Source of the DNA: Aequorivita sp.
GTDB lineage: Bacteria; Bacteroidota; Bacteroidia; Flavobacteriales; Flavobacteriaceae
Direction: 5' to 3'
Assembly: GCA_020435825.1 (NCBI GenBank)
Contig: JAGQYY010000021.1
Location: 1-36,029, forward strand
Length of the DNA: 36,029 bases
Shown here: positions 25,696 to 32,002 of the stretch, in pieces
Layout of the letters: the number at the start of each line of letters is the position of its first letter
Position numbering within the stretch: position 1 is the stretch's first letter
Notes under the pieces: generated by a model
What the model saw: the letters and a program-made list of their open reading frames with translations, nothing else
Database searches by the model: none
What the model was told of the DNA's origin: nothing
Made by a program: the position numbers and the translations under genes

Positions 25696-25740
25696 TAATT
25701 GGATTTCTGAGTTTTTTTGAGTGTTTGATTGTTAGAAAGC

Positions 25741-25802
25741 TTCATTATTCATTATTCATTATTCATTATTCATTATTCATTATTCATTATTCATTATTCA
25801 TT
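25741..25802. repeat. Heptamer tandem repeat, nearly nine copies of TTCATTA
   Basis: Eight perfect copies of the 7-base unit TTCATTA plus six bases of a ninth run from 25741 to 25802. On the minus strand the unit reads TAATGAA. The repeat lies 46 bases upstream of the patatin start and includes the last codons and stop of uvrC, so the uvrC C-terminus (NE, stop) is encoded by repeat DNA. Seven is not a multiple of three. Confidence 0.97.
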
Positions 25803-27587
25803 CCTAAAATATTCAACTAATTTCTTAGCTCTGCTTGGGCCAATTACTTTTGAAAGCTCCTCAAAACTTGCGGAAGCGATCCTTTTTGTGCTTTTAAAAT
25901 GCTTCAATAATTCAACCACTGTTTTCTCGCCAATTCCGGGAATGGTTTCAAGCTCTGTATTTAAAGCCTGTTTGCTACGTTTACTGCGGTGAAAAGTAAT
26001 CCCAAATCGGTGAGCCTCGTTTCGCAATTGCTGGATTATTTTTAAAGTCTCGCTTTTTTTATCCAAATACAATGGAATTGGATCATTGGGATAAAACAAT
26101 TCTTCCAGTCGTTTCGCAATTCCTATAATAGCTATTTTTCCACGCAATTCCAACTTATCCAGACTTTTTAAAGCTGAAGAAAGTTGTCCCTTTCCCCCAT
26201 CTATGATGATAAGTTGTGGCAATGGTTGCTCCTCTTCCAGCAATCTTTTGTAACGACGATAAACAACTTCTTCCATCGAGGCAAAATCATCGGGCCCTTC
26301 CACCGTTTTAATGTTGAACTTACGATAATCCTTTTTACTCGGTTTTCCGTTTTTGAAAACCACACAGGCCGCCACGGGGTTTGTACCTTGAATATTACTG
26401 TTGTCAAAACATTCTATATGTCGTGGTTCTTCACTTAACCTTAAATCTTTTTTCATCTGTGCCATGATGCGCTTTTCATGACGGTCTGGATCTACAATTT
26501 TTGCCTGCTTAAAACGCTCCATTCGGTAATATTTCGCATTTCTTTCGGAAAGGTCCAGAATAGCTTTTTTATCGCCCAGTTTCGGTATGTGTACTTTTAT
26601 GTCCTCGCCCAGTTCCACTTCAAAAGGTGTATAAATTTCTTTTGAAAGCGAATTGAACCGCTGCCGAATTTCCACAATGGCAAGCTGTAGCAATTCCTCA
26701 TCGGTTTCGTCCAACTTCTTTTTAATTTCCAAAGTGTGCGAACGGATAATAGCGCCGTGCGAAAGCTGCAGAAAATTTACATACGCATAGCTTTCATCAG
26801 AAATGATTGAGAAAACATCCACATTGTTGATCTTCGGATTTACAACCGTGCTTTTGCTTTGGTAATTCTCCAAAATATCAATCTTTTCCTTTACGCGCTG
26901 CGCCTGTTCAAACTTTAAATTTGCAGCCAATTCCTTCATTTGGCTTTTAAATTTGTGCAGCGAATCCTTAAAATTTCCTTTTACGATATTTCGGATGGCT
27001 TCTATGTTTTCCTGGTATTCCGCTTCGGAATACAGGCCCTCGCAGGGTCCACTGCAATTTCCCAAATGATATTCCAAGCACACTTTATACTTGCCCGCCC
27101 TAATTTTTTCTTCGGAAAGGTCGTAGTTGCAAGTGCGTAGTGGGTACAATCCTTTTATTAAATCGAGCAAGGTGTGCACGGTTTTCATACTCGTATATGG
27201 CCCGTAATATTCGCTGCCATCCTTTATCATTCTTCGTGTAGGAAAAACGCTTGGAAACCGTTCGTTTTTTATACAGATCCACGGGTAGCTTTTATCGTCC
27301 TTCAGCATCACGTTGTAGCGCGGCTGATAGTTTTTAATCAAATTGTTTTCCAACAAAAGCGCATCGGTCTCTGTTTTTACGACGATGTGCTTTATGGTTT
27401 CAATTTTTTTTACGAGAATTCGGGTTTTGCCATTGTCCTGCGTTTTGTTGAAATAGGACGAAACACGTTTTTTTAGGTTTTTCGCCTTGCCCACATACAG
27501 CAGTTTCCCATCCTTATCATAATATTGATAAACACCGGGCGAATCAGGAAGGGTTGCAATTTGAAGCGTTACCGAAGCATTGGCCAT
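25794..27587 (-). CDS. uvrC: Excinuclease ABC subunit C
   Basis: A 597-residue UvrC, the dual-incision nuclease of nucleotide excision repair, acting with UvrA and UvrB on damaged DNA. Order: GIY-YIG nuclease (about 10-95; SPGVYQYYDKDGKLLYVGKA) for the 3' cut, Cys-rich patch and UVR domain that binds UvrB (about 160-235), the RNase H-like endonuclease (HIECFDNSNIQGTNPVAACV, catalytic Asp) for the 5' cut, and a tandem helix-hairpin-helix (TIPGIGEKTVVELLKHF) at the C-terminus. The start at 27587 is the only Met ahead of the GIY-YIG domain. Its stop lies in the heptamer repeat, and the C-terminus after the HhH is short. Confidence 0.97.
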   Translation of the reverse strand: MANASVTLQIATLPDSPGVYQYYDKDGKLLYVGKAKNLKKRVSSYFNKTQDNGKTRILVKKIETIKHIVVKTETDALLLENNLIKNYQPRYNVMLKDDKSYPWICIKNERFPSVFPTRRMIKDGSEYYGPYTSMKTVHTLLDLIKGLYPLRTCNYDLSEEKIRAGKYKVCLEYHLGNCSGPCEGLYSEAEYQENIEAIRNIVKGNFKDSLHKFKSQMKELAANLKFEQAQRVKEKIDILENYQSKSTVVNPKINNVDVFSIISDESYAYVNFLQLSHGAIIRSHTLEIKKKLDETDEELLQLAIVEIRQRFNSLSKEIYTPFEVELGEDIKVHIPKLGDKKAILDLSERNAKYYRMERFKQAKIVDPDRHEKRIMAQMKKDLRLSEEPRHIECFDNSNIQGTNPVAACVVFKNGKPSKKDYRKFNIKTVEGPDDFASMEEVVYRRYKRLLEEEQPLPQLIIIDGGKGQLSSALKSLDKLELRGKIAIIGIAKRLEELFYPNDPIPLYLDKKSETLKIIQQLRNEAHRFGITFHRSKRSKQALNTELETIPGIGEKTVVELLKHFKSTKRIASASFEELSKVIGPSRAKKLVEYFRNE

Positions 27588-27783: not shown

Positions 27784-28010
27784 TTGGCTCGGTCCGCAAC
27801 CCACATCGTTGCCATAAACCTTCCCAACCTTGGATCTGATAGGCTGGCTATTAAGGTGACCAATAACTTAGGCCAAGTTTTGGAGAAAAAGAACAACTGG
27901 AAAACACAACTGTTATCCCTTTGGATGTTTCAGGCTATGCTGCGGGAGTTTATTTTGTATCCCTAAAAGTGAGGAATGATATTACTACTAAGATGTTAGT
28001 CGTGCAGTAA
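27784..28010 (+). pseudogene. Relic of a T9SS type A cargo C-terminal sorting domain
   Basis: Two adjacent reading frames together resemble a type A T9SS sorting domain (Por_Secre_tail). The first (about 27808-27890) reads IVAINLPNLGSDRLAIKVTN followed by NLGQVLEK, matching the xVxVxNxLGQxV strand. The second frame, 27900-28010, reads IPLDVSGYAAGVYFVSLKVR and ends with TTKMLVVQ and a stop, matching the closing (I/D)LSxLxxGVYxVxxxxxxxxxxKxxV pattern. The frames differ by one step near 27890-27900, so a frameshift has broken it, and no passenger domain or start is found upstream. I take it as the remnant of a lost secreted protein. A terminator follows. Confidence 0.6.
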
Positions 28011-28059: not shown

Positions 28060-28173
28060 GGTTTTAAAAGAGCTGTGTATCTACCCCAAAATATGTTAAT
28101 AATGGATTAAAATCTTTAAGGCATTTAAGGCCCTTTGGGCTTTTTGGTTAAATTGCACCATTAATAACCAACT

Positions 28174-29046
28174 ATGAACATTGCCATTTTATCGCGTGGA
28201 GAAGCGCTATATTCCACCAAAAGTCTTTTAAAAGCTGGCGAAGAACGCAACCACGCCATGGAGGTTTTGGACCCTTCCTACTGCAACCTTACCGTGGAAA
28301 GCGGAAAAGCGGTGCTCTATTTTCAAAATGAATTGGTGGATGACCTGCACGCAGTAATCCCAAGAATTGGTGCTTCAAACACCTATTTTGGCACAAACGT
28401 GGTCCGCCATTTTGAGGCGATGGGCGTTTTTAGCGTGGTCTCTTCCGAAGGAATTAACAATAGCCGCGACAAATGGACTTGCTTTCAAATTTTGGCAAAG
28501 AACCAAATTCCCGTGCCTCGAACTATTTATGCATCTTTTTTTGAATTTGAGGAACAACTCAAAACCTTCAACGGCAAGCCAATAATCATCAAACTTTTGG
28601 AAGGCACGCATGGCGAAGGCGTTATTCTTACCGAAAGTCCGCAGAATGCCTTGGCAACCATTGAAACCTTAAATGCGGCTGGCGTAAAATTTTTGCTGCA
28701 GGAATTTATTGAGGAAGCAAAAGGTGCTGACGTTCGTGCAATTGTTGTGGACGGAGTTGTGGTTGCGGCAATGCGAAGGAAATCTAAGGTCGGCGATTTT
28801 CGAAGTAATCTGCATCGTGGCGGGACTTCAGAAATGATTTCACTTTCTTCCGCTGAGGAAAAAATTGCCATAAAAGCTGCAAAGGCGATGAATTTGGGCT
28901 TCTGTGGGGTAGATATTCTGCAATCGAAAAACGGGCCGCTAGTTTTGGAAATCAACAGCACGCCAGGATTGGAAGGCATTGAAAATACTTCGGGCAAAAA
29001 TGTTTCGAAGAGTGTGATTGGGTTTATTGAGCGGAATAAAAGATAG
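28174..29046 (+). CDS. RimK-type ATP-grasp alpha-L-glutamate ligase, divergent copy
   Basis: A 290-residue ATP-grasp ligase of the RimK family, which adds glutamate by peptide bond to a protein C-terminus (RpsF in E. coli) or makes short poly-glutamate. Visible blocks: PRIGASNTYFGTNVVRHFEA, SRDKWTCFQIL, the ATP lid [25 protein letters not shown], and the metal site GPLVLEINSTPGLEGIE (Glu and Asn ligands kept). Compared with the second copy and with my memory of E. coli RimK, two blocks differ: TQGIGV is THGEGV and RDKLRS is RDKWTC, while the metal ligands are intact. It is first in a likely four-gene operon, 92 bases ahead of the RimB-like gene. A different acceptor or amino acid is possible. 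Confidence 0.93.
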   Translation: MNIAILSRGEALYSTKSLLKAGEERNHAMEVLDPSYCNLTVESGKAVLYFQNELVDDLHAVIPRIGASNTYFGTNVVRHFEAMGVFSVVSSEGINNSRDKWTCFQILAKNQIPVPRTIYASFFEFEEQLKTFNGKPIIIKLLEGTHGEGVILTESPQNALATIETLNAAGVKFLLQEFIEEAKGADVRAIVVDGVVVAAMRRKSKVGDFRSNLHRGGTSEMISLSSAEEKIAIKAAKAMNLGFCGVDILQSKNGPLVLEINSTPGLEGIENTSGKNVSKSVIGFIERNKR

Positions 29047-29138
29047 CGCTTTTAGGCAGTAATTTCATTTTTTATCCTTATTAATTATCAGGATGGAATT
29101 TTTATTATTTAAATTGCAATTACAAAACCTCCAATACT

Positions 29139-29564
29139 TTGAAAAGAAACATCGGCAGAATAGACAAAGTAGATTTTCCATTGCTGAATCTCCTCGACAT
29201 TGAAGTGAAAATTGACACGGGTGCCTACACTTCTTCCATACATTGCAAAAACATGAAAGTGGAAGATTGTTATTTAAAATGCAACTTTCTGGACGAGGAA
29301 CATCCCAGCTATCACGAAAAGGAAATCGTTTTTGACGAATATGACGTGAAAGTGGTGAAAAGCAGCAACGGTCAATCTGAAGCCAGATATAGAATAAAAA
29401 CAGAAATTTTACTTTTCGGTAAAACACAGGAAATATATTTAACCCTAAGCGACCGTGAAGAGATGCGTTTTCCCGTACTTTTGGGAAGAAATTTTTTAAG
29501 TAACAAATATGTGGTTGACATAAATAAAACCAACCTTTCCTTCAAACTAAAAAACAAAAAATGA
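29139..29564 (+). CDS. RimB-like aspartic (retropepsin-like) peptidase, RimK-associated
   Basis: A 141-residue protein of the family annotated as ATP-dependent zinc protease / RimK-LysX peptidase, which has a retropepsin-like fold. In Pseudomonas the homologue RimB trims glutamate tails made by RimK. The active-site motif is [12 protein letters not shown] with D26-T27-G28-A29; the later [10 protein letters not shown] is the conserved second psi-loop-like strand. The start is a TTG at 29139 because the N-terminus ([13 protein letters not shown]) fits the family there and no ATG exists in frame before the active site. Its stop overlaps the next rimK start in an ATGA (29561-29564), indicating translational coupling. 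Confidence 0.9.
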
Positions 29565-30433
29565 ACATCAAGATATTATCGGCGAACGCAAATTTATATT
29601 CCACCAAACGTCTTGTGGAGGCGGCAAAAGCCAGAAAACATAACGTAGAGGTTATAAATCACGCGAAATGTGATATTGTTATTGAAAAGAAAAATCCGGT
29701 AATAATCTACAAAGGCCACAAGTTAGACCATACTGATGCAATTATACCGCGCATTGGGGCTTCTGTAACTTTTTATGGTACGGCGGTAGTGCGTCAATTT
29801 GAAATGATGCGTGTTTTCACAACCACCGAATCGCAGGCTTTGGTTCGTTCACGCGATAAATTGAGAAGCCTTCAGATACTTTCCCGTGCTGGATTGGGGT
29901 TGCCAAAAACCGTTTTTACCAACTATTCCAAAAACGTAAAGGAAATTGTTGACCAAGCTGGCGGTGCGCCCGTAATCATTAAATTGCTTGAAGGGACGCA
30001 GGGTATCGGAGTTATTTTGGTAGAAACCAGAAAAGCAGCAGAATCCGTAATTGAAGCTTTTAACAATTTACAGGCGCGAGTTATAGTTCAGGAATTTATA
30101 AAAGAGGCCGGGGGCGCAGACATTCGTGCATTTATTGTAGATGGACAGATTGTTGGCGCAATGAAAAGACAGGGGAAAGAAGGCGAATTCCGCAGTAATT
30201 TACATCGCGGAGGAACTGCTACAGTAATAAAACTTACCGATGAAGAAGAGACCGCAGCCTTGAAAGCCGCAAAAGCTTTGGGACTTGGCATTGCTGGGGT
30301 AGATATGTTGCAATCAGCCAGAGGACCGCTTATTCTGGAAGTAAATTCATCCCCCGGTTTGGAAGGAATTGAACAAGCTACAGGCAAGGACATAGCAAAC
30401 TCAATCATAAAATACATAGAACGCAACGTTTAA
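29561..30433 (+). CDS. rimK: RimK-type ATP-grasp alpha-L-glutamate ligase, orthodox copy
   Basis: A 290-residue RimK closely matching my memory of the E. coli enzyme: [20 protein letters not shown] then [15 protein letters not shown], lid [27 protein letters not shown] and [17 protein letters not shown]. All ATP and Mg residues appear intact. It has the same length as the first copy and roughly half the residues in common by eye. It overlaps the protease stop by four bases and is followed two bases after its own stop by the desuccinylase-like gene, so ligase and peptidases are made together. The substrate could be ribosomal protein S6 or another acidic tail. Confidence 0.94.
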
Positions 30434-30435
30434 TT

Positions 30436-31437
30436 ATGGCCAAAAAGGAAGAACGTGATATTGTAATCTTGAATGAACGCATCGCTCTTGGCGAAAGTAA
30501 AACAGTGGATTTCAGCATTGCAAAACTTTATACTTCCACCAAAGTTGAAATTCCAATAATCATTGAGCGCTCAAAAATTCCCGGACCAACAGTTTTAATA
30601 ACTGCGGCCATTCATGGAGACGAAATAAATGGGGTGGAAATTGTGCGCCAGCTCATTGCCCGAAAATTAAACAAACCTAAACGCGGCACCATTATTTGTA
30701 TCCCTATTTTGAATGTTTTCGGATTTTTAAACGGTAACCGTTCCTTTCCCGATGGACGCGATTTAAACAGGGTTTTTCCCGGAACGAAAACAGGTTCATT
30801 GGCAAGCCGGGTTGCATACCATTTCACAAAAAAAGTGTTACCACATGCAGATTATTGCCTCGATTTTCACACTGGCGGTGCCAGCAGGTTCAATGCAGCG
30901 CAAATCCGTATAAAACCCGACGATGAAAAATTATTGGAACTTGCAAAAGTTTTCAATGCCCCATTTACAGTATATTCCAATACTCTTGAAAAATCATACC
31001 GAAAAACATGTCAGAGAATGGGTATTCCTATACTTCTTTTTGAAGGCGGCAAAAGCCTTGAGAGCAACAAACACATTGCAAAGGAAGGCGTTGATGGAAT
31101 TATGCGTTTTTTGGAACATTTGGATATGTTGGGCAAAAGGCACTTTGCCCCAGACCCTTCTACAAAAACGGTAATTATAGAAAAAAGCAAATGGATACGC
31201 GCTCACCGCAGCGGTTTGCTTCACGTAAAAGTTGATTGTAATAAACACGTAGAAAAAGGAGAATTTTTGGCAACAATAACAGACCCTTATGGGAAAATGA
31301 GGTTTAAGGTTACTTCGCCCAACGAAGGTTATATAATTAATGTGAACCAATCTCCAATTGTAAATCAAGGCGACGCTATTTTTCATATTTCAACCGTAAA
31401 CACTGCAAATACGGAAACCGAGGAAATGGAAGATTAA
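30436..31437 (+). CDS. Succinylglutamate desuccinylase/aspartoacylase-like zinc carboxypeptidase
   Basis: A 333-residue M14-like zinc hydrolase of the AstE/ASPA family. Zinc ligands H60 and E63 (AAIHGDEINGVE) and H145 (DFHTGG) are present, as is the substrate-binding DLNRVFPG (109-116). After the catalytic domain (about 1-235) the C-terminal ~90 residues (IRAHRSGLLHVKVDCNKHVE, then GDAIFHI) form a barrel-sandwich-like beta domain typical of the longer family members. Linked to rimK it is more likely to remove or trim glutamate or acylated glutamate than to act in arginine breakdown; no other ast genes are near. Its ATG is two bases past the rimK stop and its own stop is four bases from the folate gene. 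Confidence 0.92.
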   Translation: MAKKEERDIVILNERIALGESKTVDFSIAKLYTSTKVEIPIIIERSKIPGPTVLITAAIHGDEINGVEIVRQLIARKLNKPKRGTIICIPILNVFGFLNGNRSFPDGRDLNRVFPGTKTGSLASRVAYHFTKKVLPHADYCLDFHTGGASRFNAAQIRIKPDDEKLLELAKVFNAPFTVYSNTLEKSYRKTCQRMGIPILLFEGGKSLESNKHIAKEGVDGIMRFLEHLDMLGKRHFAPDPSTKTVIIEKSKWIRAHRSGLLHVKVDCNKHVEKGEFLATITDPYGKMRFKVTSPNEGYIINVNQSPIVNQGDAIFHISTVNTANTETEEMED

Positions 31438-31441
31438 TGTA

Positions 31442-32002
31442 ATGGAAAAAAAAGCGCTCCGTTTAAAATATAAAAAGCTTCGGGAAAACCTTTCTGAAGA
31501 ATCTATTGAGGAAATGAGCCTTCAGATTGCAAACCAGGCGCTGAAACTTCCAATTTGGAACAAAACCTATTACCATATTTTCCTGCCCATTTTGTCAAAA
31601 AAAGAAGTGAATACCGAATACTTATTGCACATTCTACAAGGAAAGGACAAGAGCATCATTGTCTCAAAAGCAGATTTTGATTCGGGAGAAATGAAGCATT
31701 TTTTGTTGCAGGAAAACACGGTTTTAAAAACTTCGGAATATGGAATTTCCGAGCCCGTTTCGGGCATAGAAATTTCACCGGAAATTTTAGATGTCATTTT
31801 TGTCCCTCTTTTGGCTTATGACCAAAATGGGAATCGCATTGGTTATGGGAAAGGGTTTTACGATCGTTTTTTGGAAAAATGCGGTTCAAATGCAGTTTTT
31901 GTTGGACTTTCTTTTTTTGAACCAGAACCTGAAATAGATTTTGAACCTAGAGACATCCCACTAAATTTTTGCATCACACCAAAAAAAATAATTGATTTTT
32001 AA
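31442..32002 (+). CDS. 5-formyltetrahydrofolate cyclo-ligase
   Basis: A 186-residue enzyme that uses ATP to turn 5-formyl-THF into 5,10-methenyl-THF, in the cytoplasm. The family signatures are clear: N-terminal RLKYKKLRENLSEESI, then IFVPLLAYDQNGNRIGYGKG with YDRFLEKC (Mg/ATP and folate site) near residues 120-145. Length is typical. It starts four bases after the peptidase gene and so is probably in the same transcript, though folate metabolism has no evident link with glutamate tailing (folates themselves are poly-glutamylated, which is a thought only). No terminator is visible before the next gene. Confidence 0.95.
   Translation: MEKKALRLKYKKLRENLSEESIEEMSLQIANQALKLPIWNKTYYHIFLPILSKKEVNTEYLLHILQGKDKSIIVSKADFDSGEMKHFLLQENTVLKTSEYGISEPVSGIEISPEILDVIFVPLLAYDQNGNRIGYGKGFYDRFLEKCGSNAVFVGLSFFEPEPEIDFEPRDIPLNFCITPKKIIDF

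Follow-up and report, generated by a model that had tools for sequence, protein, structure and literature searches.

A stretch of 36,029 nucleotides from an Aequorivita sp. genome (contig JAGQYY010000021.1 of assembly GCA_020435825.1; "the window" below is this whole stretch) carries four genes in the order K1-rimB-K2-aspA. K1 and K2 are two RimK-family ATP-grasp ligases, rimB encodes a RimB-like aspartic peptidase, and aspA encodes an AspA-like hydrolase of the AstE/aspartoacylase superfamily. We found that the doubling of the ligase is a real and old feature of a lineage, best read as two modules of known kind standing side by side. On balance, we favor the explanation that an ordinary RimB-coupled module built around K2 was joined by an added, RimB-free K1 ligase, so that two merged modules share one AspA exo-hydrolase. 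The genes, their order, and their coordinates had been proposed in an initial annotation made from the letters alone, and this part held up. All four open reading frames (ORFs) are intact at the positions and on the strand given in Table 1, and domain matches confirm the identities of their products.

To follow the ligases, we used 397 genomes from the Flavobacteriaceae (the family sample) and 296 from the Bacteroidota (the phylum sample). A K1-type RimK was present in 42/397 family genomes, the window counted, at 58 to 100% identity, and the next-best matches among those listed reached at most 54%. Apart from the window's own, the best match to K1 in the phylum sample was 52% identical. Named carriers were Aequorivita, Ulvibacter, Altibacter, Luteirhabdus, and Thermobacterium, together with Flavobacteriaceae metagenome-assembled genomes (MAGs), and the nearest named K1, from Aequorivita soesokkakensis, was 94% identical. 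(Some of the 28 named K1 loci come from assemblies already in the 42-genome set, and the 28 were not added to it.) K1 formed one clade (support, 100/100), and a single clade of K1 with the K2 of double loci was rejected by an approximately unbiased (AU) test (P = 0.0076). The two ligases therefore belong to separate clades, a point that the initial annotation had raised. One K1-type locus, its genes ordered as in the Flavobacteriaceae, lies in a record named Candidatus Rokubacteria (L146; OMJU01000054.1), which is probably a misassigned bin.

K1 failed the NCBIfam equivalog model for S6--L-glutamate ligase (NF007764; 280.3 bits, cut-off 331), which K2 passed with 377.7 bits. K1 passed the RimK-family subfamily model TIGR00768 (240.9 bits, cut-off 143.4). 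Its predicted structure, with a mean predicted local distance difference test (pLDDT) score of 86.7, matched solved RimK over its full length, with template modeling (TM) scores of 0.94 to 7qys and 0.93 to 5zk6, an entry titled "RimK complexed with RpsF." In Pseudomonas RimK, seven residues contact the poly-Glu chain and six contact ADP (PMC10092738). All 13 were retained in K1, each in 40 to 42 of the 42 rows (one row is truncated at its start); Arg8 was retained in 40 of the 41 rows that cover it. K1-specific residues include S17, H79, W101, T102, H147, T166, and L167, with W101 and H147 present in 42/42 rows. Ratios of nonsynonymous to synonymous substitution rates (dN/dS), which are rough because several dS values exceeded 1, were 0.043 to 0.072 for K1 (6/8 pairs with unsaturated dS), compared with 0.009 to 0.030 for K2 (7/8 pairs) and 0.028 to 0.043 for UvrC (3 usable pairs). 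Evolution is faster in K1 than in K2: mean identities by region among the 20 double genomes are 57 to 76% versus 78 to 92%. As far as its sequence can tell, then, K1 is under purifying selection, has intact catalytic contacts, and looks active. Because it forms a single clade found in 42/397 genomes and has these properties, it appears to be neither a recent duplicate nor dead. The initial annotation had allowed for a recent duplication in this strain alone and for an inactive first copy; we found no such duplication and, in the sequence, no sign of inactivity.

The claim that only the second RimK keeps the orthodox motif blocks was incomplete. RDKLRS and TQGIGV do occur only in K2 (the K1 blocks are RDKWTC and THGEGV), but K2 has lost Arg8, which K1 retains. 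In the K2 of double loci, every ADP and poly-Glu contact was retained except Arg8, which was Ala in 19/20, the exception being genome G087. In related K2 loci without K1, the same site was Thr or Gly in L345 to L347 and Arg in L348 to L356, so that G087 and the latter group retain Arg8 in 10/10 cases. We considered tying the loss of Arg8 in K2 to the arrival of K1. However, this idea was weakened by L345 to L347, in which Arg8 was lost and there is no K1, and by G087, in which K1 is present and Arg8 was retained.

Each K1 locus had uvrC or cyclo-ligase/lspA within the retrieved stretch. Of the 42 K1 carriers, the arrangement is K1-rimB-K2-aspA in 20, and the other 22 lack both rimB and K2 (aspA is present in 20 of these and absent from 2). 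Conservation of the four-gene order in the Flavobacteriaceae, another question raised by the initial annotation, therefore extends to 20/397 genomes but not to the other 22 K1 carriers, in which K1 was the sole RimK at an E value of 1e-20. We also examined 19 K2-only genomes from the top of the list ranked by similarity to K1, which is not a random sample, and all of their loci were K2 type. A further 20 family loci, again not random, were picked for high K2 similarity and no K1. Nineteen of these were rimB-K2-aspA followed by the cyclo-ligase gene, with uvrC on the other side in 14/19. Because 19/20 K1-lacking loci have this set at the same site, rimB, K2, and aspA are the genes native to this site. 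(The opposite view, that K1 was native and rimB-K2-aspA was inserted, rested on a 61-row tree and was abandoned once the K2 search and these 20 loci were taken into account.) The twentieth, L363 (G370:C53:177000-190000), has a K2-type RimK and aspA at a different place, where neither uvrC nor lspA lies close by; residue 8 of this RimK is Ala, and its AspA forms a very long branch. Outside the family, the rimB-rimK2-aspA order is ordinary and recurs in several phyla. Among 52 generic RimK loci (the top 80 hits from a single scan, with K1 loci removed, and so not random), 17 had rimB upstream and aspA downstream, 19 had only rimB, 10 had only aspA, and 6 had neither. Flanks were short at 7 loci, and aspA was in another position at 3.

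In Pseudomonas, the endopeptidase RimB both stimulates RimK and cleaves glutamate runs once they reach about six residues. The RimB-like protein of the window matched PF05618 (61.6 bits, cut-off 27), and D26, G28, and A29 of its DTGA sequence, a retropepsin-like peptidase motif, were invariant in 12 sequences. In whole-genome searches of 76 genomes, some of them incomplete drafts, PF05618 matches were found in 20/20 genomes with both ligases, 0/22 with K1 only, 8/19 with K2 only, and 0/15 without RimK. In a tree of flanking genes from 61 loci, there were at least 8 switches between the K1-only and double states, and RimB tracked K2 in 7/7 independent pairs (P = 0.016). Two of the eight matches in K2-only genomes are ORFs of 464 to 469 amino acids (aa) that may be RimBK hybrids. 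ORFs of about 460 aa with RimK or PF05618 matches (G127-like genomes; G145:C6:80878-81285; G085:C26:143954-144358) may be such hybrids, and G085 and G145 each have, besides this ORF, a locus in which K2 and aspA are separate genes. Swapping the stretch of residues 125 to 175 in Pseudomonas RimK turned RimB stimulation into suppression (PMC10092738). K1 and K2 are 40% identical over these residues, and residues 1 to 60 are equally divergent (38%). Because of the low identity in the 125 to 175 stretch and the lack of RimB matches in K1-only genomes, K1 may be outside RimB control.

AspA, in contrast, follows any RimK in the Flavobacteriaceae. In the same genomes, an orthologue (E value below 1e-100) was found in 20/20 with both ligases, 20/22 with K1 only, 19/19 with K2 only (broken in G061), and 0/15 without RimK. 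Therefore, AspA stands alongside RimK of either type in 59/61 family genomes, and the two peptidases are not equivalent partners. Distant AspA matches (28 to 29% identity) occurred in 3/15 RimK-less genomes. In Pseudomonas, RimB is reported not to suffice for the return of S6 to its unmodified form, which calls for a second protease, left unidentified there (PMC7343187). Because AspA is present in 59/61 genomes with RimK and in 0/15 in which RimK was not found, it would be a natural and concrete candidate for such a second tail-removing protease. The partnership of RimK and AspA survives gene reordering, since L170, L200, and L176 keep aspA in other positions: divergent and upstream of rimB-rimK (Arcobacter and Sulfuricurvum MAGs) or between rimB and rimK (a Woeseiaceae MAG).

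Known members of the AstE/aspartoacylase superfamily release an amino acid from an N-acyl group, chemistry that is close to removal of a C-terminal residue. The AspA-like protein matched PF24827 (128.5 bits, cut-off 25). H60, E63, H145, and E203, putative zinc and catalytic residues whose division between these two roles we presume, were invariant in 21 AspA-like sequences from several phyla. None of the equivalog cut-offs was reached for AstE (18.5 of 305.65 bits), aspartoacylase (19.4 of 180), or DoeB (101.8 of 402.7), and the RimB-like protein also fell far short of its NCBIfam equivalog (NF052261; 56.6 bits, cut-off 200). These scores qualify the RimB-like and AstE-like labels of the initial annotation. 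By both sequence and structure, AspA is nearest DoeB. The top fold neighbor of its model (mean pLDDT, 90.6) was DoeB, an N-acetyl-diaminobutyrate deacetylase (TM score, 0.78). CphZ, a cyanophycin dipeptide hydrolase (TM score, 0.71), ranked after DoeB and related structural-genomics entries, and AstE, human aspartoacylase, and the deglutamylase CCP5 were all at about 0.5.

We propose that the widespread rimB-rimK-aspA module (with K2) gained K1 once or a few times in a marine Flavobacteriaceae lineage. K1 most likely arrived within a RimB-free rimK-aspA module, a relative of the one in another family lineage, and the two modules would then have been sorted into K1-rimB-K2-aspA here and K1-aspA elsewhere. 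Each ligase would be expected to add alpha-linked L-glutamates onto a carboxyl end in an ATP-dependent reaction, K2 coupled to RimB and K1 uncoupled. The AspA-like enzyme could serve either ligase, removing C-terminal glutamates one by one or hydrolyzing short oligo-Glu. In careful trees (near-copies and some long rows were excluded from trees), K1 was nearest the RimK of a second Flavobacteriaceae lineage (support, 99/93 and 94/93). AspA-beta, which occurs in 15 K1-only genomes, is distinct from the AspA-alpha of double loci. In a careful AspA tree with more relatives, AspA-beta (12/15 after near-copies were dropped) grouped with the AspA of the second lineage (99/94), and double-locus AspA grouped with native-module AspA. 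If the careful trees are right, K1 and AspA-beta share the same odd affinity. This suggests that a rimK-aspA module of another family lineage merged into the native site and was sorted afterwards. Eleven RimK-less loci with uvrC fell outside the K1 clade.

Several points weigh against this reading. The K1 stem is very long (0.65 and 0.92 in two trees), so the placement of K1 may be long-branch attraction, and a tree uniting the K2 of both family lineages without K1 was not rejected at 0.05 (P = 0.068). FastTree put K1 beside Saprospiraceae (support, 97), a result on which we did not rely because of the long branches. An earlier quick AspA tree with fewer relatives placed AspA-beta nearer AspA-alpha (92, by the Shimodaira-Hasegawa-like approximate likelihood ratio test [SH-aLRT] only); it was set aside for the careful tree, which includes more relatives. 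K1 has no fixed link to AspA-beta, because 5/22 K1-only genomes carry AspA-alpha and 2 have no AspA. When AspA type was compared with arrangement, 4 or 5 of 7 independent pairs agreed and none opposed, which is not significant (P = 0.06 to 0.125). With extra relatives, the distribution of K1 takes three changes to explain: one for the main clade, one for G087, which lies outside that clade, and one for G041, which lies within it but has no K1. Also, several K1-only genomes are incomplete drafts (e.g., 64 to 76% complete). Finally, the nearest solved relatives of AspA are deacylases, and the link of AspA to RimK is looser outside the family, with aspA downstream at only 27/52 generic RimK loci.

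The initial annotation named ribosomal protein S6 (RpsF) as the known substrate of RimK, but as the acceptor here S6 looks doubtful. We read S6 in 70 family genomes (20 K1-only, 20 double, 18 K2-only, and 12 RimK-less). None of the 70 ended in Asp or Glu, and the last ten residues were net basic in 70/70, with RimK or without. (In all, 73 S6 genes were found; G161, G016, and G082 are not among the 70.) The S6 tail was net acidic in 21 and net basic in 3 of 30 other Bacteroidota with RimK. Among RimK carriers of other phyla (n = 30), 13 tails were net acidic and 15 net basic. Because 15/30 of these are also basic, a basic S6 tail beside RimK is not peculiar to the Flavobacteriaceae. Such a tail is no proof that S6 is unmodified, but with it the chief argument for S6 as the acceptor falls away. 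It has been noted that RimK may serve other functions in bacteria whose S6 lacks a terminal Glu (PMC11957791). The acceptor in the Flavobacteriaceae is probably not ribosomal S6.

The initial annotation had suggested a division of labor, which would follow an in-place duplication: K1 would begin the tail or work on a different acceptor, elongation would fall to K2, and RimB and AspA would set the length. Retention of both ligases in 20/397 genomes fits this idea, and the loss of the poly-Glu contact Arg8 by K2 could mark specialization. There is also a precedent in methylofuran synthesis, where two ATP-grasp ligases, MyfA and MyfB, are involved in one polyglutamate side chain (PMC8141765). However, we think the idea unlikely. 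Each copy is found alone, K1 in 22/42 carriers and K2 in many relatives, so an obligate division between initiation and elongation is not supported. The AU test speaks against an in-place duplication, and Arg8 was lost in K1-free loci and retained in the K1-bearing G087. A different view is that these genes belong to a cyanophycin-like metabolism of poly-alpha-glutamate, with RimK synthesizing free poly-Glu, RimB cleaving it, AspA hydrolyzing the fragments, and S6 playing no part. The basic S6 tails agree with this, as does the presence of CphZ among the fold neighbors of AspA. Moreover, RimK makes free poly-alpha-Glu, at an S6-free rate of 47 nmol/min/mg that rises to 196 nmol/min/mg with RimB (PMC11957791). 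Even so, we rate it as distinctly unlikely; the nearest fold neighbor of AspA is DoeB rather than CphZ, and a protein acceptor other than S6 would fit equally well.

Folate or another cofactor could also be the acceptor, as in archaeal MptN and CofF, and the gene for 5-formyltetrahydrofolate cyclo-ligase (MTHFS) directly after aspA might be taken as a hint. With the MptN model, K1 scored 174 bits, about as high as K2 (166 bits), but both are far below the cut-off of 350. In RimK-less genomes (20 searched), uvrC adjoined MTHFS in 11/13 MTHFS loci. Because MTHFS stays beside uvrC without RimK, it is not specific evidence for a folate link, and we dropped it as such. There was also no MTHFS match at 1e-6 in the flanks of the 52 generic RimK loci, a search that distant homologues could escape. 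A cofactor acceptor is therefore very improbable. That K1 is a functionless relic is scarcely credible: its faster evolution would fit, but it is under purifying selection, retains its contact residues, and is the sole RimK found in 22 genomes.

Beyond the merger of two modules that we favor, a broader reading is conceivable, if rather doubtful. RimK would not act on S6 in the Flavobacteriaceae, and RimK, RimB, and AspA would form a pathway that makes, cuts, and recovers poly-alpha-glutamate, either free or on another protein. AspA would be its last enzyme and the counterpart of the Pseudomonas "reset" protease. The lineage would then run two parallel pathways, one of them RimB controlled, that are swapped as modules.

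Within the window, the last genes of the set are tightly packed. There is a 4-base overlap of rimB with rimK2, and gaps of 2 bases between rimK2 and aspA and of 4 bases between aspA and MTHFS. Because 92 bases separate rimK1 from rimB, rimK1 may be a separate transcription unit. A hairpin upstream of rimK1 (28127-28143) was no better than shuffled sequence. Ahead of rimK1, an ORF scrap (27860-28010) looks by eye like the C-terminal sorting tail of a type IX secreted protein. In a close relative, L033, a 758-aa ORF resembling a TonB-dependent receptor sits between uvrC and rimK1, and so the gap appears to have been remodeled. Between a patatin-BamA-like gene and uvrC there is a short repeat (25729-25800), in which an ORF reads by eye as repeated FIIHYSL.

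Table 1. Coordinates of the K1-rimB-K2-aspA genes and their neighbors in the window
Feature	Coordinates	Strand	Description
rimK1 (K1)	28174..29046	+	290 aa; divergent RimK-family alpha-L-glutamate ligase of the RDKW/THGxGV clade; PF08443 and PF18030
rimB-like retropepsin	29139..29564	+	141 aa; PF05618; TTG start; DTGA motif
rimK2 (K2)	29561..30433	+	290 aa; orthodox RimK; PF08443 and PF18030; Arg8 replaced by Ala
AspA-like hydrolase, AstE/aspartoacylase superfamily	30436..31437	+	333 aa; PF24827; candidate exo-trimming enzyme
5-Formyltetrahydrofolate cyclo-ligase (MTHFS)	31442..32002	+	Neighbor, not specific to the RimK system
uvrC	25794..27587	-	Usual left flank of the site

The features of most interest are the constant AspA partner within the Flavobacteriaceae and the S6 without an acidic tail. 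AspA accompanies RimK there whether or not RimB is present, which makes it a candidate for the second protease that returns tails to zero in Pseudomonas (PMC7343187). The basic S6 tail makes an alternative RimK substrate testable. Furthermore, K1-only, K2-only, and double genomes offer a comparison of natural single mutants, and one genus contains two such genomes (G156 and G337). Judging by title and abstract opening, none of the literature matches listed for the terms used describes a double-RimK operon.

The cluster resembles several known systems. Like Pseudomonas rimABK, it has a RimK with a neighboring retropepsin-like RimB, and the contact residues and DTG motif are conserved. Unlike rimABK, it has two ligases and an AspA-like hydrolase in the operon, and S6 has no acidic tail. 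The RimBK hybrids reported from Flavobacteriales and Rhodobacterales (PMC11957791) also join RimB to RimK, in the same bacterial order, whereas the genes here are separate (the ORFs of about 460 aa, which may be hybrids, are elsewhere in the Flavobacteriaceae). MyfA and MyfB are likewise two ATP-grasp glutamate ligases per side chain, but their acceptor is a cofactor, and the portion of that report drawn on here mentions no peptidase (PMC8141765). AspA shares the superfamily domain, the conserved H/E/H and Glu residues, and the fold with DoeB, AstE, and aspartoacylase, but it meets none of the three equivalog cut-offs, and its genomic partner is RimK. Cyanophycin synthetase, an ATP-grasp amino-acid ligase, is paired with an AstE-superfamily hydrolase, CphZ, that acts on pieces of its product. 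The ligase architecture and the amino acids differ from those considered here, and the likeness is one of plan only.

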